A stretch of 63,753 bases of DNA from Blastopirellula retiformator (GTDB lineage: Bacteria > Planctomycetota > Planctomycetia > Pirellulales > Pirellulaceae), in the NCBI RefSeq assembly GCF_007859755.1, contig NZ_SJPF01000004.1:844005-907757 (forward strand), in the 5' to 3' direction. The position numbers and the translations under genes were made by a program. Position 1 is the stretch's first letter. Each line of letters starts with the position of its first letter. Shown piece after piece: positions 7,349 to 63,753 of this stretch. The notes below the pieces were generated by a model. That model was not told the origin of the DNA. It made no database searches and saw only the letters and a program-made list of their open reading frames with translations.

Positions 7349-7924
7349 GTGCTTCATCTTCAATCGCCCAGTTCCGACCGGTGGTTTTCCCAGGTCAGCG
7401 ATCATCTTGACCTGCTGCTGATCGACCACGCCCATTGCGAAAAAAAGGCGGCCGGCGTCGCCATGAACATGATCTTCGCCTATGTCGAAAACGAAGATCT
7501 CTGCCGCGCGATGACCGAAATCGTCAATGAAGAGTTGGAGCACTTTCACATGGTGCTCGCGCTGCTCCACGAGCGGGAAATCCCCTTCCGTCGACTGAAA
7601 CCGAGCAACTACGGCGAACAGTTGCACGCACTGATCCGCAAGAATGAGCCCGAACGAGCGGTCGACCGCCTCTTAGTGGCGGGGCTGATTGAAGCCCGCA
7701 GCTGCGAACGGTTTGGCATGCTCCGCGAGCGGCTGGAGGACAAAACGCTGGCCAGCTTCTATGACGAGTTGTTTGAGTCGGAGGCCCGGCATCATTCGGC
7801 GTACGTCCGTCTGGCCAAGCATTACGCCGACGACAAGACGGTGATGGACCGGCTGGACGAACTGGCGGCGGCAGAAGCGGCGATTATCGCGACCGGAGAC
7901 GAGAATCCCCGGATGCACAGCTAG
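7349..7924 (+). CDS. miaE: tRNA-(ms2io6A)-hydroxylase-like protein (MiaE family)
   Basis: The product is 191 aa and matches the MiaE family, non-heme diiron monooxygenases that hydroxylate 2-methylthio-N6-isopentenyladenosine at position 37 of tRNA. The ferritin-like four-helix ligands are visible: HCEKKAAG (about 31-38), NEELEHF (about 60-66), EARSCERF and ESEARHHSAY. Length is close to the usual 190-260. The start is GTG at 7349; no ATG lies closer to the conserved N-terminus. It is separated by 79 bp from mtnB and may be transcribed on its own. The exact tRNA substrate is inferred from the family. Confidence 0.9.
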   Translation: MLHLQSPSSDRWFSQVSDHLDLLLIDHAHCEKKAAGVAMNMIFAYVENEDLCRAMTEIVNEELEHFHMVLALLHEREIPFRRLKPSNYGEQLHALIRKNEPERAVDRLLVAGLIEARSCERFGMLRERLEDKTLASFYDELFESEARHHSAYVRLAKHYADDKTVMDRLDELAAAEAAIIATGDENPRMHS

Positions 7925-8003
7925 AAGTCGCGGTTGGTTGTGGTCGCCGTAAATCGTGATAGACTGGCGTTTTACGCACTTTGAGAAACGGTGACGAAGA
8001 TTT

Positions 8004-8732
8004 ATGGAAAACGTCTCCCTTGGGGGCGCTTCGCTCGGCCAGCCCCACCCTGCCCTGATTGGCCAAGAAGCGGAAATTGACGCCCTTCGCGAAACCGGCA
8101 CTTACTTCTTCCAGCGCGGTTGGTCAGTCGGAACCAGCAGCAACTACAGCGCCGTGCTGCAGCAAGATCCGCTGCAACTGGTGCTGACCGCTAGCGGCAT
8201 GGACAAAGGGCGGTTAACGCGGGCCGACTTTGTGCGGGTCAACGACCAGGGCAAACAGGTCGACGTCACCGGCTCCGCCACCACCGATCAGCCGAAGTCA
8301 TCGGCCGAGACGCTGTTGCATGTGGTCGCCGCCCAGCACCGGTCGGGCGTCGGCGCGATTCTGCATACCCATTCGATCTGGGGCACCTTGTTGTCGGACC
8401 ACTTCTTCGACGAAGGAGGCTTCGCGATCGAAGGGTACGAGATGCTCAAAGGTCTGGCCGGCGTCAAGACGCACGAGCATACCGAGTGGGTGCCGGTCTT
8501 CGACAACACGCAAGACATTCCGGTCTTGGCCGAGCAGGTCGCCGCCCGGTTGGCCGATCAATCGCAACCGCCGATCCATGGCTATTTGATCCGCCGCCAT
8601 GGGCTATATACCTGGGGCGCCGACGTCGCCGAAGCGCGACGCCACATCGAGATTTACGAGTTTCTGTTTGAAACGGTGGTTCGTCGCATGATGCTATGCG
8701 GCGAACTGCGCAGCGCCGCTTCGGCCGTTTAA
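8004..8732 (+). CDS. mtnB: Methylthioribulose-1-phosphate dehydratase
   Basis: The product is 242 aa, a class II aldolase-fold enzyme of the methionine salvage pathway that dehydrates methylthioribulose-1-phosphate to 2,3-diketo-5-methylthiopentyl-1-phosphate. Visible features are the N-terminal GWSVGTSSNYSA (GTSGN-like phosphate loop), LTASGMDKGRL, and the zinc-binding HTHSIWGTLLS followed by a distal RRHGLYTWG histidine. It is first of three co-directional mtn genes (40 bp before mtnD). The isomerase MtnA and the kinase or phosphorylase that feed it are not in the window. Confidence 0.95.
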   Translation: MENVSLGGASLGQPHPALIGQEAEIDALRETGTYFFQRGWSVGTSSNYSAVLQQDPLQLVLTASGMDKGRLTRADFVRVNDQGKQVDVTGSATTDQPKSSAETLLHVVAAQHRSGVGAILHTHSIWGTLLSDHFFDEGGFAIEGYEMLKGLAGVKTHEHTEWVPVFDNTQDIPVLAEQVAARLADQSQPPIHGYLIRRHGLYTWGADVAEARRHIEIYEFLFETVVRRMMLCGELRSAASAV

Positions 8733-8772
8733 CCCGATCATTTCCTGCAGCGATATTCGGAGAAACCTCCCT

Positions 8773-9354
8773 ATGGCGAGCATTACCATTCACGACGAGA
8801 ATCGTCGCATCACCGATCCGCAAGAGATCCGCCAATACCTCGAGCCGTACGGCATCTGGTACGAAAAGTGGGAGGTCGAAGGCCGCATCGGCGCCGAAGC
8901 GACCAATGAAGATATCTTGACCGCGTACGCGCCGGAGATCGAACGGCTGAAGAACCAAGGGGGCTACGTCACCGCCGACGTGATCAACGTCAATCCCGAG
9001 ACCCCCAACCTCGACGCGTTGCTCGCTAAGTTTGACAAAGAACATACCCACAGCGAAGACGAAGTCCGCTTCACCGTCAAAGGGCAAGGCGTCTTCCACA
9101 TCAACCCGCCGGAAGGCCCGGTCTTTTCGGTCCTGGTCGAGTCGGGCGACTTGATCAACGTGCCCGCCAACATGAAACATTGGTTCACCCTGTGCGACGA
9201 AAAGACGATTCGCTGCATTCGCCTGTTTGAAGATCCCAGCGGCTGGACTCCGCACTACATGGACGCCGGCGTCCACGAAAAGTATTCGCCGCTCTGCTGG
9301 GGCCCCGACTACATTCCGAAAGCGGACGATCTCGACCCGGTGGTGAAGCCTTGA
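8773..9354 (+). CDS. mtnD: Acireductone dioxygenase
   Basis: The product is 193 aa, a cupin metalloenzyme that converts acireductone to 2-keto-4-methylthiobutyrate and formate (Fe form). The metal ligands appear as EHTHSEDEVRF (His-x-His-x5-Glu) with the fourth histidine in NMKHWFTL. An AGGAG-like site (CGGAGAAACC) precedes the ATG. Its stop codon overlaps the TTG start of mtnC (TTGA), so the two are translationally coupled. It is the middle gene of the mtnB-mtnD-mtnC operon. Confidence 0.96.
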   Translation: MASITIHDENRRITDPQEIRQYLEPYGIWYEKWEVEGRIGAEATNEDILTAYAPEIERLKNQGGYVTADVINVNPETPNLDALLAKFDKEHTHSEDEVRFTVKGQGVFHINPPEGPVFSVLVESGDLINVPANMKHWFTLCDEKTIRCIRLFEDPSGWTPHYMDAGVHEKYSPLCWGPDYIPKADDLDPVVKP

Positions 9355-10085
9355 TCGAATTTTACGGCCGCGGTCTGCTGCTCGACATCGAGGGGACGAC
9401 TGCCAGCGTCGCTTTCGTTTACGACGTGATGTTTCCGTTTGTCCGCCGCGAGCTGGACGCATATCTCGAGTCGGCGTGGGGTACGCCTGAGCTCGAATTG
9501 GTCCTGCGCTATATCGCCCAGGACGCCGGGTCCGACTCGTTTGCCGAGTGGACGCAGGACGACGCCACCGAAGAGGCGAAGCGGCAGCGAGTCAGCGCCG
9601 AGATGACGCGGCTGATGGACGACGACGTCAAAGCGACTGGACTAAAACAGCTGCAAGGCTTGATCTGGAAAGCAGGCTTTGACTCCGGCGAACTGGTCGC
9701 GGCCGTCTTTGACGACGTGCCGGACGCCCTAGAGCGCTGGAACGCCGCCGGCAAGGACGTGCGAATTTATTCTTCCGGCAGCGTCGCCGCACAGAAGATG
9801 TTCTTCGAGCACACCAATCACGGCAATCTGTTGCCGATGTTTCAGGGGCACTACGACACAACGACCGGGCCCAAGAAAGAGGCGCAGAGCTATCGCACCA
9901 TCGCTGGCGACTTCGACTTTGAGCCGAGCCAGATCTTGTTCCTAAGCGACGTCGTGGCCGAACTGGACGCCGCGCGCGAAGCCGGAATGCGAACCGGTTT
10001 GTGCTATCGCCCTGGGAACGCGCCGGTCGAAAACGCCAATGGACATACCGCCATCGAATCGTTCGACCAGATATCCATCGGCTAG
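9351..10085 (+). CDS. mtnC: Enolase-phosphatase E1
   Basis: The product is 244 aa, a HAD-superfamily bifunctional enolase/phosphatase that turns diketo-methylthiopentyl-phosphate into acireductone, the substrate of the neighbouring MtnD. HAD motif I is LLDIEGTT at residues 9-16 (DxEGT type characteristic of MtnC), motif II is IYSSGSVAAQK, and motif III/IV is FLSDVVAELDAA. The start is TTG at 9351, overlapping the mtnD stop, because no downstream ATG precedes motif I. Confidence 0.95.
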   Translation: MIEFYGRGLLLDIEGTTASVAFVYDVMFPFVRRELDAYLESAWGTPELELVLRYIAQDAGSDSFAEWTQDDATEEAKRQRVSAEMTRLMDDDVKATGLKQLQGLIWKAGFDSGELVAAVFDDVPDALERWNAAGKDVRIYSSGSVAAQKMFFEHTNHGNLLPMFQGHYDTTTGPKKEAQSYRTIAGDFDFEPSQILFLSDVVAELDAAREAGMRTGLCYRPGNAPVENANGHTAIESFDQISIG

Positions 10086-10111
10086 CACGCAAAATTTTTT
10101 GCGACGTTTAT

Positions 10112-55332: not shown

Positions 55333-57435
55333 ATGCGAAGCAAACTGTCTAGCGGTACGCGCCCATCGAATCTGGAAGCGCTCGAGCAGCGTGAATTGTT
55401 TGCGATCGATACGCTCTCGATCGCCCCGATCGACGATGCGACCCTTCCTCCGCCGGCGCCAGTTCCGACCGCGCTGATTGACGAAGTCCGCTCGATCGAC
55501 GGCGCCGGCAACAATGTCGAGAACCCCGAGTATGGCAGCGTCGGCGAAAATTTCGTCCGCGTCGCCGCGGCCGATTATGGCGACGGCATCTCTTCACTAG
55601 CAGGTGAAGATCGCCCCAGCGCTCGCGAGATCAGCAATGCGTTGGCCGCCCAAGATCCCGACTCGGTCGGCAACGAGCGCCAACTTTCCGCCTTCATTTA
55701 TGTCTGGGGCCAGTTCCTCGATCATGATATTGACTTGACCGAAGGGGGAGACGCCGAGGCGGTCGGCATCGCCGTTCCGACCGGCGATCCTTACTTTGAT
55801 CCGGACGCCAGCGGCGACGATGTGATCTCGTTCTTCCGTTCGCTGTTTGACCCAGCGACCGGCGACAGCGTCGACAATCCGCGGGAGCAATTCAACTCGA
55901 TCACCGCCTTCATCGACGGCTCGCAGGTTTATGGCTCGACGCAGGAAGTCGCCGATAGCCTGCGCAGCTTCGAGGGAGGCAAGTTATTGACCAGCGACGG
56001 CGACTTGCTGCCGATCGACGACCAAGGATTCTTTGCGGCCGGCGACATCCGGGCCAACGAGAACATCGAGTTAACCGCGCTGCAAACGTTGTTCGTGCGC
56101 GAGCACAACTTCTGGGCCGAGCGAATCGGGGCCGAGAATCCTGCGTTGTCCGACGAAGAGATCTACCAGCAGGCTCGCTCGATCGTGATCGCTGAGATCC
56201 AGTCGATCACGTTTAACGAGTTCCTCCCTGCCCTGCTCGGCGAAGGCGTGTTGCCTGACTACGCGGGCTACGATTCGACAATCAATCCGCAGATCAGCAA
56301 CGAGTTTGCCACGGCCGGCTACCGGATGGGGCATAGTCTACTCAACGACGATATCGAGTTCTTCGGCAACGACGGCCGCGCAGTTGCGGACGAGGTGACC
56401 CTCGCCGAGGCGTTCTTCAATCCGGCGCTCGTGCAACAGCATGGCATCGACTCGCTGCTGAAATACGCCGCCTCGTCGCAGTCACAGGAAGTCGATACGC
56501 AGATCGTCGATAGCGTTCGCAACTTCCTGTTCGGCCCTCCCGGCAGCGGCGGGCTCGACCTGGCGTCGCTCAACATCCAGCGTGGTCGTGATCATGGCAT
56601 CGCCGACTATAACTCGGTCCGAGAAGCGTATGGTCTACCGCGGGTAACCAGCTTCGCCGAGATCACCTCCGATCCCGAACTGCAGCAATCGCTGGAAGAA
56701 CTGTACGGCACGGTCGACAACATCGACTTGTGGGTCGGCGCCTTGGCCGAAGATCACGTGCCCGGCGGCAGCGTCGGCGAAACGACTCAGGCGATTCTGG
56801 TCGAACAGTTCACTCGCTTGCGTGACGGCGATCGCTTCTGGTACGAGAACATCTTCTCAGCCCAAGACGTCGACCGTATCGAGCGGACCTCGCTCTCCGA
56901 CATCATTCAGCGGAACACGGTGATCGATAATCTGCAGGAAAACGTCTTCTTCATGTCGGCGACGGTCAGCGGAACGGTTCTGGCCGACGGTCAACAGGAT
57001 GGCCGCCGTGACCGTCCGCGAGGATTGCCTGGCGCAACGGTGCAGCTGTTGGATGACGAAGGAGAAGTAATCGCCGAAGCGACGACTGATCGCCGCGGCA
57101 ACTACCACTTTGACAACTTCCTGGAAACGGGCGACTACCAGATCCAGGCCTTGCTGCTGACGCCAACGGGCCCGGTGACGCAAACCCAGGATGTGCTGAT
57201 CTCGGTCGGCGGCGAGGCGATCCGCAACGTCGACTTCGGCCCCCAGACGCCACCCCGCCCTGGTGACAACGACCGTCCCCGCGATCGACGCGACCAACCG
57301 CGCCGCGACGATCGCCGGCAACCGCCACGCGAACGCTTGTTCGCCGATGAAACGCTCCTCGATCCGATGGGGGAACTGATCGACGACCTGGCCAGCGACT
57401 TGAGCGACCAGAACCGCCCCAGAGCCGGCCGCTAG
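55333..57435 (+). CDS. Secreted animal-type heme peroxidase with C-terminal SdrD-like domain
   Basis: The product is 700 aa. The N-terminus RPSNLEALEQRELFAIDT is the planctomycete LEALExRxLFA motif found on exported surface proteins. The peroxidase/cyclooxygenase-like domain (about 50-540) shows the distal His in QFLDHDIDLTEGG, FIDGSQVYGST (Ca2+ region), REHNFWAERIG, YRMGHSLL (proximal His) and NIQRGRDHGIADYNSVREAY. A beta-sandwich of the SdrD/CNA-B type follows (LPGATVQLLDDEGEVIAEAT). The tail is rich in Arg, Asp and Pro (RDRRDQPRRDDRRQPPRERL). It probably oxidises halides or phenolics outside the cell. A strong terminator follows. Confidence 0.93.
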   Translation: MRSKLSSGTRPSNLEALEQRELFAIDTLSIAPIDDATLPPPAPVPTALIDEVRSIDGAGNNVENPEYGSVGENFVRVAAADYGDGISSLAGEDRPSAREISNALAAQDPDSVGNERQLSAFIYVWGQFLDHDIDLTEGGDAEAVGIAVPTGDPYFDPDASGDDVISFFRSLFDPATGDSVDNPREQFNSITAFIDGSQVYGSTQEVADSLRSFEGGKLLTSDGDLLPIDDQGFFAAGDIRANENIELTALQTLFVREHNFWAERIGAENPALSDEEIYQQARSIVIAEIQSITFNEFLPALLGEGVLPDYAGYDSTINPQISNEFATAGYRMGHSLLNDDIEFFGNDGRAVADEVTLAEAFFNPALVQQHGIDSLLKYAASSQSQEVDTQIVDSVRNFLFGPPGSGGLDLASLNIQRGRDHGIADYNSVREAYGLPRVTSFAEITSDPELQQSLEELYGTVDNIDLWVGALAEDHVPGGSVGETTQAILVEQFTRLRDGDRFWYENIFSAQDVDRIERTSLSDIIQRNTVIDNLQENVFFMSATVSGTVLADGQQDGRRDRPRGLPGATVQLLDDEGEVIAEATTDRRGNYHFDNFLETGDYQIQALLLTPTGPVTQTQDVLISVGGEAIRNVDFGPQTPPRPGDNDRPRDRRDQPRRDDRRQPPRERLFADETLLDPMGELIDDLASDLSDQNRPRAGR

Positions 57436-57966: not shown

Positions 57967-58374
57967 ATGAAGACTTTAATTTGCCTGGTCGCGGTCACCC
58001 TCACTTCGTTCGCCTTGGTTTCCAGCGCTAGCGCCGCTGAACCGAATGGCAACGTTGACAATGCCACGCTCGCCTCGATGGGCCTGTCGGGTCTGGAAGT
58101 GATGAGCGACGAAGAAGGCAAGAGCGTTCGCGGCACCTTCGCCATCGCTTTCGGCTCTGGCACCTCGAACTTCCTGCGTAGCACGCAGACCACCGGCTAC
58201 GCTGCCGGCGACTTTGGCCGTGGCGTTGATTTCGCCGCTGGCGGCAACACCAGCCAAACCGGTTTCACGTACAACCAAACGGTTACCGGTCCGCTGAACA
58301 TCCCGGTCTTCAGCAACACGATCAGCCTGGGCACCTACGCCACCGGCAGCTCGTGGGCCTTCGCCGGTCGCTAA
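57967..58374 (+). CDS. Small secreted protein with leader-like motif (possible cargo of C39/beta-barrel locus)
   Basis: The product is 135 aa from ATG 57967. A Sec signal (CLVAVTLTSFALVSSASA) ends near residue 23. Residues 33-56 (NATLASMGLSGLEVMSDEEG then KSVRG) resemble double-glycine-type leaders, in which an acidic MSDEE-like helix ends in a Gly pair or RG before the mature peptide. The remainder is rich in Gly, Ser, Thr, Asn and aromatic residues and low in charge (SQTGFTYNQTVTGPLNIPVF), as in many amyloid or bacteriocin-type proteins. It is convergent with a C39 peptidase gene. Being its substrate is inferred from location and motif, not shown. Confidence 0.78.
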   Translation: MKTLICLVAVTLTSFALVSSASAAEPNGNVDNATLASMGLSGLEVMSDEEGKSVRGTFAIAFGSGTSNFLRSTQTTGYAAGDFGRGVDFAAGGNTSQTGFTYNQTVTGPLNIPVFSNTISLGTYATGSSWAFAGR

Positions 58375-58395
58375 GCGATCGACGCGTCAGCCAAT

Positions 58396-58441
58396 CAAAA
58401 AAGAGAGGCCGCATCGAACCGGATGCGGCCTCTTTCTATTT
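58396..58441. terminator. Bidirectional terminator
   Basis: A 12-bp stem AGAGGCCGCATC / GATGCGGCCTCT with a GAACCG loop has an A-run to its left and a T-rich right side, so it can terminate both the small secreted gene and the leftward C39 operon. Confidence 0.9.
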
Positions 58442-58464
58442 CTTGTTACCGAAGCGCCGACTAT

Positions 58465-58579
58465 CTGCCTGTTGAAAAATGCCATCGTGGCATTTTCCAA
58501 CCTCGCCAGGCTCAGAGCGTAGCTCTTCGCGGCTCGCATCCATGCGATCACGCAGTCCGTCGAGAAAATCAACGGACTG
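58465..58579 (-). repeat. Three-hairpin miniature element, internally deleted copy C
   Basis: It is a 115-bp version of the 150-bp element in inverse orientation. The middle hairpin is missing: a 35-bp deletion occurred between two TGCGA direct repeats. A few substitutions are also present. Its start (CAGTCCG end) lies directly against the C39 peptidase stop codon at 58580. Confidence 0.88.
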
Positions 58580-59299
58580 CTATGGATAAGCGGGAAACGG
58601 GATCCGGAACGGCTTCTCGGGGAACGTGCGAATGATCTGGTCATCGACCCAACCGCGGGCCATCTCTTCGTGCCGCACTTCCAACTGCGAAACGTCCGAC
58701 TTCGCTTTCCCTTTTTTCGCCACCACCAGCACGGCGTTCTCGATCCAGATCCGCTCAAACTCGAACTGAGGGATCCGCAGGTTGCCGCGAGCAGGATCGG
58801 CCAGGAAGACCCAGCCGTTGGCCACTCCCCGCACCACGACAAAGTGATTCGTCTCTTCCAGGCGAATCGCCACAATCAGCGGAACTTTCGCTTCCGCCAG
58901 TTTCTCGATATCCAGACGCCCGATCGTCGACAGGTAACCCAGCTTCACCGCCGCCAGACGCAAGTCGGAAATCGCCAGGCCGTTCTCAAACCGTTCCTTC
59001 AGCTCGTCCCGCGTCAGGTTCTTCTCAACGACCCCCAATATCTGGTTTTCGGTGACCGGATCGCCCCAGTAGTAGCGGCAAATCGTCGCCAACGCCGCCG
59101 CTCCGCACGAAAAGTCGCGCTGCTGCTTGACGATGTTCTGATCGCGGATTGCGGTCCAGGTTCTGGCGTAGGCCTGGATGTTGTTGTCGCGCGAGCGTAC
59201 TGGCGGCCCAAACTGCGATCGCGTCTGGGCATCTGCTGAAGTCGCGATCGTCATCACGACGACCAGGGCGAAGACCGAAAGAATCCGAGTTTTCAGCAT
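58580..59299 (-). CDS. FapD-like C39 family peptidase with signal peptide
   Basis: The product is 239 aa from ATG 59299; a longer form from 59341 would put residues before the signal. A Sec signal (SVFALVVVMTIATSADA) precedes a papain-like C39 domain: catalytic Cys65 in QQRDFSCGAAALATICRYYW, His152 in EETNHFVVVRG and Asp168 in VFLADPARGN. The arrangement matches FapD of functional-amyloid (Fap) operons and C39 domains of bacteriocin exporters, but here as a stand-alone periplasmic protein. It is followed at the 5' side by the beta-barrel gene on the same strand, 29 bp apart. Confidence 0.92.
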   Translation of the reverse strand: MLKTRILSVFALVVVMTIATSADAQTRSQFGPPVRSRDNNIQAYARTWTAIRDQNIVKQQRDFSCGAAALATICRYYWGDPVTENQILGVVEKNLTRDELKERFENGLAISDLRLAAVKLGYLSTIGRLDIEKLAEAKVPLIVAIRLEETNHFVVVRGVANGWVFLADPARGNLRIPQFEFERIWIENAVLVVAKKGKAKSDVSQLEVRHEEMARGWVDDQIIRTFPEKPFRIPFPAYP

Positions 59300-59328
59300 G
59301 GCGTAACTCAACAGGCTTTCTCCGGCGT

Positions 59329-60540
59329 TTAGTACGTCCAAACGACGCCGATTACCGAATCGGCGGCGTCTTCGGTCATGCCGATTTCGGCGAACGGTTC
59401 CACGATTCTGCCGCAGCGATAATTGGTCGCCGCAAATCGCAATCGCAGCAGTTCCCGCATCGAGCCCGGCACGCCGAGTCCGTTGATCTGCGTTTCGGTT
59501 TGAAACAGCCCCAAAAACGAGGCGCTCAGCGTGATGCGATCATTCACCGCAAAACCAACGCCCAGGTTGTACGTAAACTGGTGACCGTAGAAAACGTTCT
59601 GGTTGTCGAATTCCCGCTCGGCCTGATAGCGATAACCGAGTCCATAGAAATAGATGATCGGATCGTAGCGTTGGATAAACAGCAACTGCGCGGAAGGCGC
59701 CCAGACGCCGTTGGCCAGCGTCGCTTGCGTTAGCCCGTTGACCGCATACTCGGCGTCGCCGGTCGGGGCGGTCAGGCCGAAGCTCAAAATCACATCGGGC
59801 GAATACCCATAGCAACCTTCGCGGCACAGCAGATTGACCCCCAGTTCCAGGTCGCCGATACCGCCGTTGTCGCTCGTCTGATCGAAACGCCCTACCGACG
59901 AAAACTCTTGACTCGCCCAACCCACCGGCAAGCTGCCCGACAGTTGCACCCGGTCCGAAAGTCCATACCGCAAAGCGAACGGCACAAACAGCGAGCGACG
60001 TTTTAGGTCGGCCCGCGCCACGCCGGAAGGACTGACCTCGATCGGAAAGTCATAGTCCGCCTTCGCGTAAACCAACCCCACATCCATCTGCCACTGCCCC
60101 GGCGTCAGCAGCACGCTGGCCGTCCGCAGAAACTGCACGTTGAAATCTTCCAGCGGCTCGCCATACTCTTGCTCTTGGCTGACCAGCGGCTTAACCAGTT
60201 CGACCTTGCCGCTTTCCGGCGTCATCGGAATCGGCGGCGGAGGCAGCGGCGCCGCGTCGTCCTGTAGCGCCGTCACCGGCATGATCGTGCCATTACCGTA
60301 TTTCCAGACCAGCGAAGAGTCATGCACAAACAACGGCTCGTCCTGGTGCAAACGCTCCGGCGCACGATAGTCCCACTGCGCTTCGGCGGCCGAGGCCATT
60401 CCCATCGCCGCAAAGGCGATGGCCAGCAGCGCCGCGGGCAACCGCCCGGCAGACCAGCTTCGGCGGCGACAGGTTACGCAGGCTCGCGTCATCGTTTCGA
60501 TCCTTCGGGAAACGCGCTTCATCGGCTTGTAGACTTCCAT
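59329..60540 (-). CDS. FapF-like outer-membrane beta-barrel transporter
   Basis: The product is about 403 aa; starts at 60540, 60522 and 60492 are possible. A signal peptide (AALLAIAFAAMGMASAAEA) is followed by a Pro-rich segment (DDAAPLPPPPIPMTPESGKV) and a barrel of alternating strands (LTPGQWQMDVGLVYAKADYD, then YYFGLGYRYQ-type strands), ending in an aromatic C-terminal WTY. It resembles the Phenol_MetA_deg-like transporters found beside C39 peptidases, including FapF. It lies between the C39 peptidase and the BBP7 barrel and is likely the secretion channel; no direct evidence is available. Confidence 0.82.
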   Translation of the reverse strand: MEVYKPMKRVSRRIETMTRACVTCRRRSWSAGRLPAALLAIAFAAMGMASAAEAQWDYRAPERLHQDEPLFVHDSSLVWKYGNGTIMPVTALQDDAAPLPPPPIPMTPESGKVELVKPLVSQEQEYGEPLEDFNVQFLRTASVLLTPGQWQMDVGLVYAKADYDFPIEVSPSGVARADLKRRSLFVPFALRYGLSDRVQLSGSLPVGWASQEFSSVGRFDQTSDNGGIGDLELGVNLLCREGCYGYSPDVILSFGLTAPTGDAEYAVNGLTQATLANGVWAPSAQLLFIQRYDPIIYFYGLGYRYQAEREFDNQNVFYGHQFTYNLGVGFAVNDRITLSASFLGLFQTETQINGLGVPGSMRELLRLRFAATNYRCGRIVEPFAEIGMTEDAADSVIGVVWTY

Positions 60541-60574
60541 CTTGAGGAACCTTATCTGCGTCCTAAGCGCCGCG

Positions 60575-61717
60575 TTACCAAACGATGCCGGTCGAGAAGG
60601 CGAAACCAACCAGGTCGAGCGAATCGGACGGCGCCAACGCGTTCATCGTCAGTTCACCCACATTCAGTTCGCCGACGGTCGAAGTGGCGCCAGCCGCTCC
60701 TCCCATTTCGCCCCAGTTTTGATACTCAAACGCCCCGCGAACGAAGAACCGCCCGCCGATGCACTTCAGCGGGGCGCTCCACTGGGCGCCAAGTTGAAAC
60801 TCCGCGACAAAAATCGAATCGCTGCTGCCGGCGAAACCGCCGTTGGTTTGCGTGGCGTTGCCGCTGGGGCTGATCAACTGGGCATGCGTCAGAGCGCCGA
60901 CGTACGTGTCGCCAAACAGGACCGAGCCCCGGGCGTTCCAGAACCACTGCAGACCCCAGCAGCAATCGCTGCAGCGATAGCCCGAGAGCGAAAACGTCAG
61001 GCCATCCCCTTCAAAGTTGGCGATCCCCGAGGCGGTTCCGGCGAAGATGTCGTTGCCGCCACCCAAGCCGCCCGGCCGAGCGATGATGCCGTTAAACCCG
61101 ATCGTTTCGTTGGTGTCGCGCATCGCATGGCGATAACCGAACGTCCCGACCATGTTCCAGTCGCAAACGCAAAACTCTTTGACCGCTTCCAGGTCAAACG
61201 CGTACATTTCCAGATTCGTGCCGGAGGCGTAACCGAACGTATCGCCGACGACGAAGAACGGGTCGTTGTAGTTCGAGCTGGAGTTCAGTTCCCAGTAGCG
61301 GAACTGCACGCCCCAGCCGCTGTCGCAAACGTAGCTGGCCCAAATCCGCGGCGCCGGCGTCAGCCCGCCAATGCCATAGTCGCTGGTCGCAAAGCTATTA
61401 GTGACCGGCGTGGTCGCATTGGCGAACGTCCACCCTGCCTGATTGCCGCCCGACGGCGCCAAAAAGGTCGCTTCGACGCCCACCCGCCAGCCCGAGCGGC
61501 AGCACCCGCACGCCGGCCCACATGCCGTTTGGTACTGGTCGGTCTGGTAGTGATCGCTGGCGCTCGCCATGCCATCCGAGTTCTCAAACGCCACCGGCAA
61601 CAGCCGCGGCTCTTGTTCCCAGTAGACCGAACGGAAAACATCGTCCGATTGGGCGAACGATGTCGAGGAGGCCATCAGTACGACCGCCATCGCAACAAGC
61701 CGGTGACGCATTTTCAT
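60575..61717 (-). CDS. BBP7-family outer-membrane beta-barrel protein
   Basis: The product is 380 aa from ATG 61717, preceded by an AAGGA site. A signal peptide (RLVAMAVVLMASSTSFAQ) is followed by a Cys-rich patch (TACGPACGCCRSGWRVGVEA) and repeated amphipathic strands (VCDSGWGVQFRYWELNSSSN, FFVRGAFEYQNWG), ending in GFAFSTGIVW. This is the BBP7/Lpg1974-like family abundant in planctomycete outer membranes. It is first in the leftward run BBP7-barrel-C39 peptidase; whether it participates in export or is just co-transcribed is not known. Confidence 0.87.
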   Translation of the reverse strand: MKMRHRLVAMAVVLMASSTSFAQSDDVFRSVYWEQEPRLLPVAFENSDGMASASDHYQTDQYQTACGPACGCCRSGWRVGVEATFLAPSGGNQAGWTFANATTPVTNSFATSDYGIGGLTPAPRIWASYVCDSGWGVQFRYWELNSSSNYNDPFFVVGDTFGYASGTNLEMYAFDLEAVKEFCVCDWNMVGTFGYRHAMRDTNETIGFNGIIARPGGLGGGNDIFAGTASGIANFEGDGLTFSLSGYRCSDCCWGLQWFWNARGSVLFGDTYVGALTHAQLISPSGNATQTNGGFAGSSDSIFVAEFQLGAQWSAPLKCIGGRFFVRGAFEYQNWGEMGGAAGATSTVGELNVGELTMNALAPSDSLDLVGFAFSTGIVW

Positions 61718-61985: not shown

Positions 61986-62129
61986 TCGGAAGAGGCGGTT
62001 GGCCGCAAGGGTGCGAGAGAACGACTCAGGGAAGCCGGGGCGCTCTGGGGTACAAGGCGCTACCTCGACATGGACCGCCTGCACGAACTGGAGGAGCACG
62101 AGGACGACAATTTTCCAGAGCCAGGCTGA
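61986..62129 (+). pseudogene. 3' fragment of an unidentified protein gene
   Basis: A 47-codon open stretch without a start codon reads GARERLREAGALWGTRRYLD and ends HEDDNFPEPG before a TGA. The composition is protein-like. It runs antisense to the aberrant tail of the transposase gene, so it probably marks a recombination junction. Confidence 0.3.
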
Positions 62130-62599
62130 AAATCAAAAGAGCGCAACTTGACGGACGGTACCCGGGCGAGCGATCCCCATTTCCAGTCTTCGGCCAAAGT
62201 TACCAGGCCAGCCTGCCGGGCATTGCGTTCGACATAACGACATACGACCAGAAAGTGCCGGTCGTCTTGCACCGGAAAACTCTTGAACCGCCCTTGATAG
62301 ATGTGCCCTTCGCCGGAAGTGTGGCAGTGCGCGTGTCGGCGCATCGTGTGCGTCAGGGTGACCCACCGCAGCAAGTCGCTCATGCCGCCGTCAGCGGTGG
62401 GGCGGACGACCAAATGCCAATGGTTGGGCATCAGTTGGTAGGCTAAAATTTGACACGGGTACCGCGACAGCCCCTCGGCCAAAATACGCTCGAACGCATC
62501 GAAATCGTCCGGCGTATCGAAGATCGCCGCCCGAGAGTTGCCTCGATTCAAGGCATGATAAATGCCGCCGGCTTCGTCTGCTCGCTTTGGCCTACCCAC
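62060..62599 (-). pseudogene. REP-associated tyrosine transposase (RAYT / IS200-like), C-terminally truncated
   Basis: The N-terminal 150 residues are a clear Y1-type HUH transposase of the REP-associated class: MGRPKRADEAGGIYHALNRG, the HUH pair in LMPNHWHLVVRP, and the region YQGRFKSFPVQDDRHFLVVC with the candidate catalytic Tyr. After WKWGSLARV the sequence no longer matches the family (PSVKLRSFDF, then a Ser-rich run), while homologues continue for about 70 more residues. The break lies near 62163. The gene may be inactive. RAYTs move REP-type palindromes and could be a source of the miniature elements in this window. Confidence 0.82.
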
Positions 62600-63448: not shown

Positions 63449-63753
63449 TTATTTTCGGCCCGGCTGATTGTTCTCGAATTTCACTGGCGTTTGGTAGCCG
63501 AGGCTGGAGTGCTTTCGGTCGCAGTTCTGGAGTGCTTTCGGTCGCAGTTGTAGTAGCGAAAGTACTCTACCAACTCGCGCGCCCCAACGCCCACATCCTC
63601 GTATTCGGTCATTTCCAGTTCCGTCATGATCGTTCCGAAGCAAGATTCCATGAATGCGTTGTCGTAGCAGTCGGCGGCCCGGCTCATGCTTTGCCGAATC
63701 GACGCGCGGCGCAGCAGCGATCGGAACCGCTTCCCTGCGTACTGGCCTCCTCG
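63449..63753 (-). pseudogene. IS3-family transposase (OrfB, DDE integrase core), 3' part, frameshifted
   Basis: The sequence enters from the right window edge and encodes GGQYAGKRFRSLLRRASIRQ, then SMSRAADCYDNAFMESCFGT and IMTELEMTEYEDVGVG, typical of the C-terminal rve domain of IS3/IS150-type transposases (the Glu of the DDE triad lies in FMESCFGT). At 63504-63549 a 23-bp unit occurs twice in tandem, shifting the frame. With a single copy the reading frame would continue as NCDRKHSSLGYQTPVKFENN to the TAA at 63449. The element is therefore inactive. Confidence 0.88.
63504..63549. repeat. 23-bp tandem duplication within the IS3 transposase
   Basis: CTGGAGTGCTTTCGGTCGCA plus GTT occurs twice head-to-tail (63504-63526 and 63527-63549) without a mismatch. 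Its length is not a multiple of three. Confidence 0.95.

Follow-up and report, generated by a model that had tools for sequence, protein, structure and literature searches.

The window, a stretch of 63,753 nucleotides from Blastopirellula retiformator, raises the question of how a small protein with both a Sec-type signal peptide and a C39-type leader leaves the cell, and what it does outside. The original prediction had proposed a Fap-like or bacteriocin-like export locus; its genes were found in place and its overall observation is confirmed, while its interpretation is supported in part. From the sequence and from relatives, the cargo gene (57967..58374, + strand) encodes a small exported protein of 135 aa, as predicted, comprising a putative signal peptide (about residues 1-24; 57967..58038, +), a leader identified by motif and profile (residues 35-56, LASMGLSGLEVMSDEEGKSVRG; 58069..58134, +) and a mature part of 79 aa, or of 78 with a cut one residue past RG (58135..58371, +). 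Residues 33-56 read ATLASMGLSGLEVMSDEEGKSVRG, in agreement with the earlier description. The mature part is 65% Gly/Ser/Asn/Thr/Ala/Gln and 6% charged, and Cys is absent. A terminator-like hairpin (58402..58435, both strands) separates this gene from the convergent genes, although such sites are not above expectation across the region (5 observed, shuffle mean 5.4).

First on the minus strand is the stand-alone C39 peptidase (58580..59299), which has a signal-type N-terminus. The predicted catalytic residues of this 239-aa protein, Cys65, His152 and Asp168, are all present and are invariant in 22 aligned sequences. It matches Pfam Peptidase_C39 (1.3e-21), its fold matches known C39 domains in a structure search, and it consists of the C39 domain alone, without a fused ABC transporter. 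Its best NCBIfam match is FilB (1e-22, far under the cut-off); FapD scored 76.1 bits against a cut-off of 330. In a C39 tree it falls in a planctomycete clade separate from FapD.

The next gene (59329..60540, alternative start possibly 60492, -) encodes an outer-membrane barrel. Its designation as a transporter-type barrel can be sharpened to FapF-like, from the NCBIfam FapF match (1e-13; 50.9 bits, under the cut-off of 700) and from the best PDB fold matches, FapF 5o67 and 5o65. FilC matched weakly (3.8e-4, far under cut-off). The Pfam family name of the barrel is Phenol_MetA_deg, and in the fold search the COG4313 channel 4rl8 (E 1.4e-12) comes directly behind FapF, so a MetA-type uptake channel lying beside a peptidase-cargo pair by chance must be weighed. 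It is highly improbable: all 18 FapF chains among the matches listed outrank 4rl8, a barrel is present at 73 of the 80 C39 loci scanned, in several phyla, and barrel, C39 and leader are gained or lost together.

This joint distribution is exact. The original prediction had staked itself on co-occurrence in other genomes, and stand-alone C39, barrel and leader occur in an identical set of 20 of the 297 genomes of the class. C39 and barrel are neighbours on one strand in 20/20 neighbourhoods, and a leader protein is present in 19/20. The gene arrangement is therefore not due to chance. A profile trained on 49 leaders of other loci recovered leader proteins in the same number of neighbourhoods (27 of 6495 ORFs at E < 1e-3; next 0.024) and none among shuffled ORFs (best 2.1); leader profile A4 includes rows from the positive genomes. 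Among 38 non-duplicate loci of the planctomycete clade, a leader was found in 27 by regular expression and in 30 by profile. The 8 loci without a leader by profile are L091, with 20 kb of sequence, and others on short contigs. Clustering of neighbourhood ORFs gave no obvious widely shared immunity or modification gene among the clusters inspected; beyond C39, barrels and cargos, these were apparently shadow frames or general genes. A planctomycete cluster spanning 13 loci (363-428 aa) and some smaller ones also came out of the clustering.

The second outer-membrane-type protein (60575..61717, -) is linked to the C39/barrel system. A relative adjoins C39 or cargo in 17 of the 20 C39-positive genomes (some have relatives elsewhere too), and relatives occur anywhere in 20 of 277 genomes without the stand-alone C39 system. 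The predicted BBP7 label was dropped, as Pfam gave no BBP7 match to the window protein (E ≤ 1) or to six relatives (E ≤ 0.1). It is weakly Legionella_OMP-like: this family matches the window protein and 2/6 relatives tested, all under cut-off.

Conservation also separates the leader from the rest of the cargo. Mean identity is 0.44 in the leader (shuffled 0.08) and 0.24 in the mature part (shuffled 0.21); a conserved leader with a mature part near the shuffle baseline is as expected for a leader that is cleaved. Because of co-occurrence, adjacency and this leader-only conservation, the leader protein is very probably the substrate of the C39 peptidase and FapF-like barrel, as the original cargo assignment had it. 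Alternatively, the C39 protein might be a chaperone or a barrel-cutting enzyme, the conserved stretch being a targeting signal kept on the cargo. Some C39-like domains of type I secretion bind substrates only, and cleavage of FapF by FapD was proposed, according to the sections cited of PMC5557850. The same source reports that Fap secretion needs FapD and its catalytic Cys; this, the invariant Cys, His and Asp, and conservation in the leader but not in the mature part make the alternative quite unlikely.

Cleavage of the leader thus being the preferred reading, the position of the cut can be considered. Canonical C39 leaders have G, A or S at -1 and usually Leu at -7. The window leader fits a C39 register with a hydrophobic residue at -12, S-11, E-8, V-4, R-3, G-2 and a variable -1. 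It had been described as a double-glycine leader ending in RG; the C39-type leader stands, but the double glycine is not literal because this register sets RG at -3/-2. Cargo leaders do not keep to Gly-Gly, Gly-Ala or Gly-Ser at -2/-1 and have VRG-x instead, where x is L, T, Q, K, M, A, S or others (Thr in the window). G or A occupies the position that is -7 in the C39 register, or -6 when counted from RG. In a profile comparison MSDEEGKSVRGTF aligned to IKDQELSELRGRY of FapE (13 columns, probability 24%). Because of this alignment and the C39 register, RG at -3/-2 with a cut one residue later seems favoured over RG as the literal leader end and a cut directly after it. Profile search gave 84 RG, 2 RA and 1 SG among 87 matches, the profile having been built from Arg-containing rows; the leader regular expression has Arg fixed in its pattern, so its Arg count is uninformative.

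The folds, the parts of the pathway, their co-occurrence and the conservation of leader and mature part were computed, and a two-step export pathway is likely on these grounds. The 135-aa cargo would cross the inner membrane by Sec, with removal of its signal peptide. The Sec-exported C39 peptidase would then bind the leader in the periplasm and cut at VRG or one residue later. This would release a weakly charged chain, rich in Gly/Ser/Thr/Asn and free of Cys, which would exit through the FapF-like barrel. Its destination would be the cell surface or the matrix; there it would most likely serve as a self-assembling or adhesive subunit and might be retained by the linked second outer-membrane protein. 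Localisation, cleavage, order of export and cargo role are what we infer. Neither the window cargo nor the leader proteins matched Pfam or NCBIfam above cut-off; related cargo L076 matches CsgA (1.4e-6, under cut-off) and is the sole amyloid-resembling cargo.

The same route could instead deliver a bacteriocin-like or autolysis peptide of microcin or Nap type, acting on kin or competitors and building no surface structure. The nap island of Neisseria, as described in the sections cited of PMC11798529, groups GG peptides with the C39 protein NapP and with NapF, a homologue of FapF, and has a role in autolysis. The window locus likewise brings together leader-type substrates (cf. NapABC), stand-alone C39 and FapF-like barrel, and some genomes have multiple cargos at one locus. 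Mature Naps, however, are predicted to be cationic and of 16-36 aa (PMC11798529), unlike the 79-aa, 6% charged window cargo, which has no bacteriocin family match above cut-off in Pfam or NCBIfam; the inspected clusters, moreover, include no obvious widely shared immunity-type neighbour. These observations make a peptide of this kind unlikely. Those sections also place Nap processing, as a proposal, in the periplasm and suggest that a holin-like protein mediates passage across the inner membrane; they name no signal peptide for Nap peptides, whereas the window cargo has one of Sec type.

With a surface or matrix subunit as the preferred reading, the locus can be set against other export systems. 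C39 fold and leader pattern (hydrophobic -12, E-8, hydrophobic -4, G-2) are shared with the PCAT/AMS exporters (ComA, LahT, PCAT1). Unlike these, the window C39 is Sec-type and lacks an ABC transporter part, its substrate has its own signal peptide, and leaders of its type are variable at -1 with G or A at -7. The putative pilus system Fil of Acinetobacter is similar, with FilB best for the C39 and FilC weak for the barrel, although both proteins are far under these cut-offs; the literature listing gave no paper on the Fil substrate.

Fap is the closest comparison. Both have a periplasm-type stand-alone C39 adjoining a FapF-type barrel, whose fold is closest to FapF, and in FapE a Sec signal is followed by a C39-type leader with LRG at its end (cf. 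VRG in the window cargo). Unlike Fap, the window locus has another gene order, its cargo itself bears the leader, its C39 lies in a separate clade, and the FapD and FapF cut-offs are missed by far. The original prediction had seen no FapC or FapE, and none was found by genome search: the best FapC match had E 0.62 (the query was one Pseudomonas-genus FapC, which a distant FapC could escape), and FapE gave no match at E ≤ 1, while the same family matches in 42/59 Pseudomonas-genus genomes. A search for the FapE family in four genomes of leader loci gave no match; its repeat in the genus of L143 gave the 42/59 count above. The missed cut-offs, the separate clade and the negative FapC and FapE searches are the grounds for rejecting a reduced Fap operon. 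Thus, of the proposed reduced or distinct planctomycete system, the reduced Fap is discarded, and the locus is better described as a branch of a broader family to which the nap island also belongs. Judged from its sequence, it appears to work like Fap and Nap, yet is not a Fap operon.

In Pseudomonas the literature C39 motif lies directly behind the signal peptide of FapE (12/12 single loci and 4/4 operons) and is absent from all 17 other Fap proteins checked. The FapE leader departs from the literature consensus only at -1. At 33 non-planctomycete loci the motif occurs in 13/66 small signal-bearing ORFs near C39 and in 3/162 others (p 1.0e-5), with no match at 13 of these loci; similar Sec-plus-leader proteins adjoin some, but not all, of the related C39/barrel pairs of other phyla. 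We propose, newly here, that a tandem Sec signal and C39-type leader, as read in the window cargo and FapE, may be a substrate feature. It is somewhat probable that a cross-phylum pathway handles substrates with this tandem, the leader ending [VIL]-x-G (often [VIL]RG), by a periplasmic C39 and a FapF-type pore, its cargos including curli-like and other low-complexity proteins of the surface in Planctomycetota and, in Pseudomonas, FapE.

In the sections cited, the 2017 paper describes the FapD target as unclear and the Fap proteins as without canonical C39 sequences (PMC5557850), the 2018 review states that the substrate is still to be determined (PMC6173800), and FapE is the one Fap protein without an N-terminus in mass spectrometry of the cited Fap work (PMC5557850, PMC6173800). 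The locus offers candidate substrates of the pathway in Planctomycetota, of which no description was found in the literature searched, and the Sec-plus-leader signature may be a means of finding such cargos by sequence. The planctomycete leader directs attention to that of FapE and gives a residue-level prediction for the FapD target: if the cross-phylum pathway is true, FapE, cut just past its LRG leader, would be the substrate of FapD.

The cargo gene in the window (57967-58374, plus strand) encodes a 135-residue protein that starts with a signal peptide of Sec type, assigned by eye, continues with a leader of 22 residues, LASMGLSGLEVMSDEEGKSVRG, and ends in a tail of 79 residues in which Gly, Ser, Thr, Ala and Asn are abundant. 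Convergent to it, three genes share one strand: first that for a 239-residue C39 peptidase, then that for a FapF-like barrel, and last that for a second protein of outer-membrane type (the second barrel). The convergent cargo and C39 genes are separated by a terminator-like hairpin. Between them also lies a repeat of about 111 bases with several hairpins (58470-58580), which has at least 43 matches in its own genome of 6.2 Mb (40 of 383 candidates scored) and folds better than 200 of 200 shuffles (z -5.0). An IS200-like Y1 transposase (62060-62599, minus strand; Pfam 8.1e-14), perhaps of the REP-associated type, adjoins the locus and could be linked to this repeat. Upstream of the cargo is an animal-type haem peroxidase (55333-57435, plus strand; 1.4e-162) ending in an SdrD_B-like domain, and an integrase-core (rve_3) fragment at 63481-63753 (minus strand) runs past the window end.

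The C39 protein matches Pfam Peptidase_C39 (1.3e-21) and the NCBIfam families FilB (1e-22) and FapD (2.4e-21), the latter two far under their cut-offs. Its catalytic Cys65, His152 and Asp168 do not vary in 22 sequences, and its AlphaFold model (mean pLDDT 81) matches PCAT1, ComA and LahT in their peptidase domains. For the barrel, modelled at a mean pLDDT of 72 (nearly all < 50 at residues 34-113), the best fold match is FapF: 18 chains from 5o65, 5o67 and 5o68 reach E 3.9e-19 to 4.9e-15 at target TM-scores of 0.73-0.80, and a COG4313 channel ranks next. A short helix (120-125) directly precedes the barrel; FapF likewise has a helix plug, according to a review (PMC6173800). At one relative locus, L075, two C39 peptidases in tandem (8276-9112 and 9144-10097, minus strand) lie beside a single barrel.

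The original prediction held that the cargo family should accompany C39 and barrel genes in other genomes, and it is borne out: leader profile, C39 and barrel pick out the same 20 genomes in one set of 297 from the class, with cut-offs chosen after the gaps were visible. The C39 query (E ≤ 1e-5) found 29 genomes, 20 at E < 1e-40 and nine at 5e-9 to 1e-5; the weaker matches sit in open frames of 764-1825 residues and, from that length, are probably ABC-fused C39 domains. The barrel query found exactly the 20 strong C39 genomes. The 56-row leader profile, which contains rows from positive genomes, gave these 20 at E ≤ 1e-6 and 32 at E ≤ 0.1, the best of the other 12 being G198 (0.006). As a lone query (E ≤ 0.01), the window cargo reached 21 genomes, 18 of the 20 positives and three weak ones (0.003-0.007). 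The naive chance of two identical sets of 20, 1.6e-31, overstates the case because the genomes are related. More telling is joint presence or absence among near kin. Of four genomes in the window's genus, to which G055 belongs, two have C39, barrel and leader and two have none; in genus g2 all three are absent from G031 and G079, the latter giving a single leader match (E 0.089) in a 34-residue frame.

Twenty neighbourhoods of up to 19.5 kb were taken from 19 positive genomes, the window representing the twentieth. C39 and barrel are adjacent on the same strand in all 20, and a leader protein is present in 19. In the exception, L079, the C39 gene is close to a contig end; the cargo of that genome is on a separate short contig, adjoining a second-barrel relative. 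G227 carries cargo, C39 and barrel in duplicate, and the second barrel is missing from its second set. In a less circular test, a profile trained on 49 leaders from loci outside these neighbourhoods recovered 27 of 6495 ORFs at E < 1e-3, in 19 of the 20 neighbourhoods and the window (next ORF 0.024, best shuffled ORF 2.1), although L080 is not independent, having a near-identical counterpart, L115, among the training loci. A named-genome scan kept 80 loci of 588 confirmed relatives; among the matches listed, the barrel was found by profile in 73 of the 80. Likewise among the matches listed, 38 loci of the planctomycete clade remained once seven duplicates were removed, with a leader in 27 by regex and 30 by profile. 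Neither method found one in eight of these 38 listed loci; several of the eight are on short contigs, but L091 spans 20 kb. Proteins with a leader-like stretch ending QVRG occur in L128 and L130 (Pirellulaceae, a separate type).

Among the 297 genomes, 37 carry relatives of the second barrel (60575-61717, minus strand), comprising 17 of the 20 positives and 20 of the 277 others. Each of the 17 has a copy beside C39 or cargo. At several loci the gene adjoins the cargo, apart from C39, so a role as receptor or anchor would suit it.

It is the leader that is conserved. Among 76 regex-identified leader ORFs from 47 loci, mean leader identity is 0.44 (shuffled 0.08) and that of the first 80 mature residues 0.24 (shuffled 0.21; both over 2807 pairs from different loci). 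Mature parts are 44-145 residues long (mean 89), 57% Gly/Ser/Asn/Thr/Ala/Gln and 10% charged, with almost no Cys. The leader-bearing cargo of L076 (G150; 7619-8335, plus strand) has Q-G-x-x-N repeats and matches CsgA (1.4e-6, under cut-off), with no match in Pfam: a curli-like protein adjoining Fap-like machinery. Five leader-bearing genes lie in one region of L107 (13414-16982), four in L080 and three in L081; thus cargo families are expanded in some planctomycetes.

Beyond planctomycetes, a leader motif modelled on what PMC6363468 describes for ComA and LahT150 (hydrophobic at -12, E/D at -8, L/M/I/F at -7, V/I/L at -4, G at -2) was applied to 33 loci. It occurred in 13 of 66 small signal-bearing ORFs near C39 versus three of 162 others (Fisher p 1.0e-5), namely 0 of 46 machinery ORFs and three of 116 distant or long ones, all three leader-like copies themselves. 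Ten loci have a strict match (that in L142 looks accidental) and 20 a strict or loose one, some loose matches appearing accidental; examples are LSNAELDGIQGG in Granulosicoccus (L161), LTDPEMAEIRGG in Nitrospirota (L153) and MTSDELAQVRGE in Parahaliea (L145). Thirteen of the 33 have neither, and several of these show leader-like stretches by eye (MSDQKLDEIRGA in L143, AVRGQ in L134).

The L153 protein weakly matches the FapE family across the leader (3e-4), and FapE was therefore examined in Pseudomonas, the genus of L143, where it was found in 42 of 59 genomes. Each of the 12 single FapE loci encodes a signal-type N-terminus with a strict match after it, for example FKPIEIKDQELSELRG-RYVMPGR. 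Four fap operons (L205-L208) each show a single strict match within FapE, whereas the 17 other Fap proteins tested have none (FapA from two operons, FapB from three, FapC, FapD and FapF from four each; start strings missed FapA in L205 and L206 and FapB in L205). Comparison of the planctomycete and FapE leader profiles aligned 13 columns at E 8e-4, with a probability of 24%. Internal stretches in FapA of L207 and L208 (ELSDSDFADVSSG, ELADADFANITTG) resemble a degenerate C39 leader.

The 2018 review, after Rouse et al., states once more that the substrate of FapD has not been determined, and it describes fapD and fapF homologues lying together in five further phyla (PMC6173800). The pairing of C39 and barrel is therefore already known; this analysis adds the leader substrates. 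No description of the planctomycete substrates or the FapE leader was found in open-licence PubMed Central literature, a scope that does not establish absence from print. Of the published arrangements seen, the nap island of Neisseria, as presented in PMC11798529, comes closest. Export of the cargo by the C39 peptidase and barrel is probable, and a structural role for it as a surface protein is somewhat favoured. In its working the pathway of the planctomycete locus resembles Fap and Nap, so that it is better described as a variant of the Fap/Nap kind than as a Fap operon.
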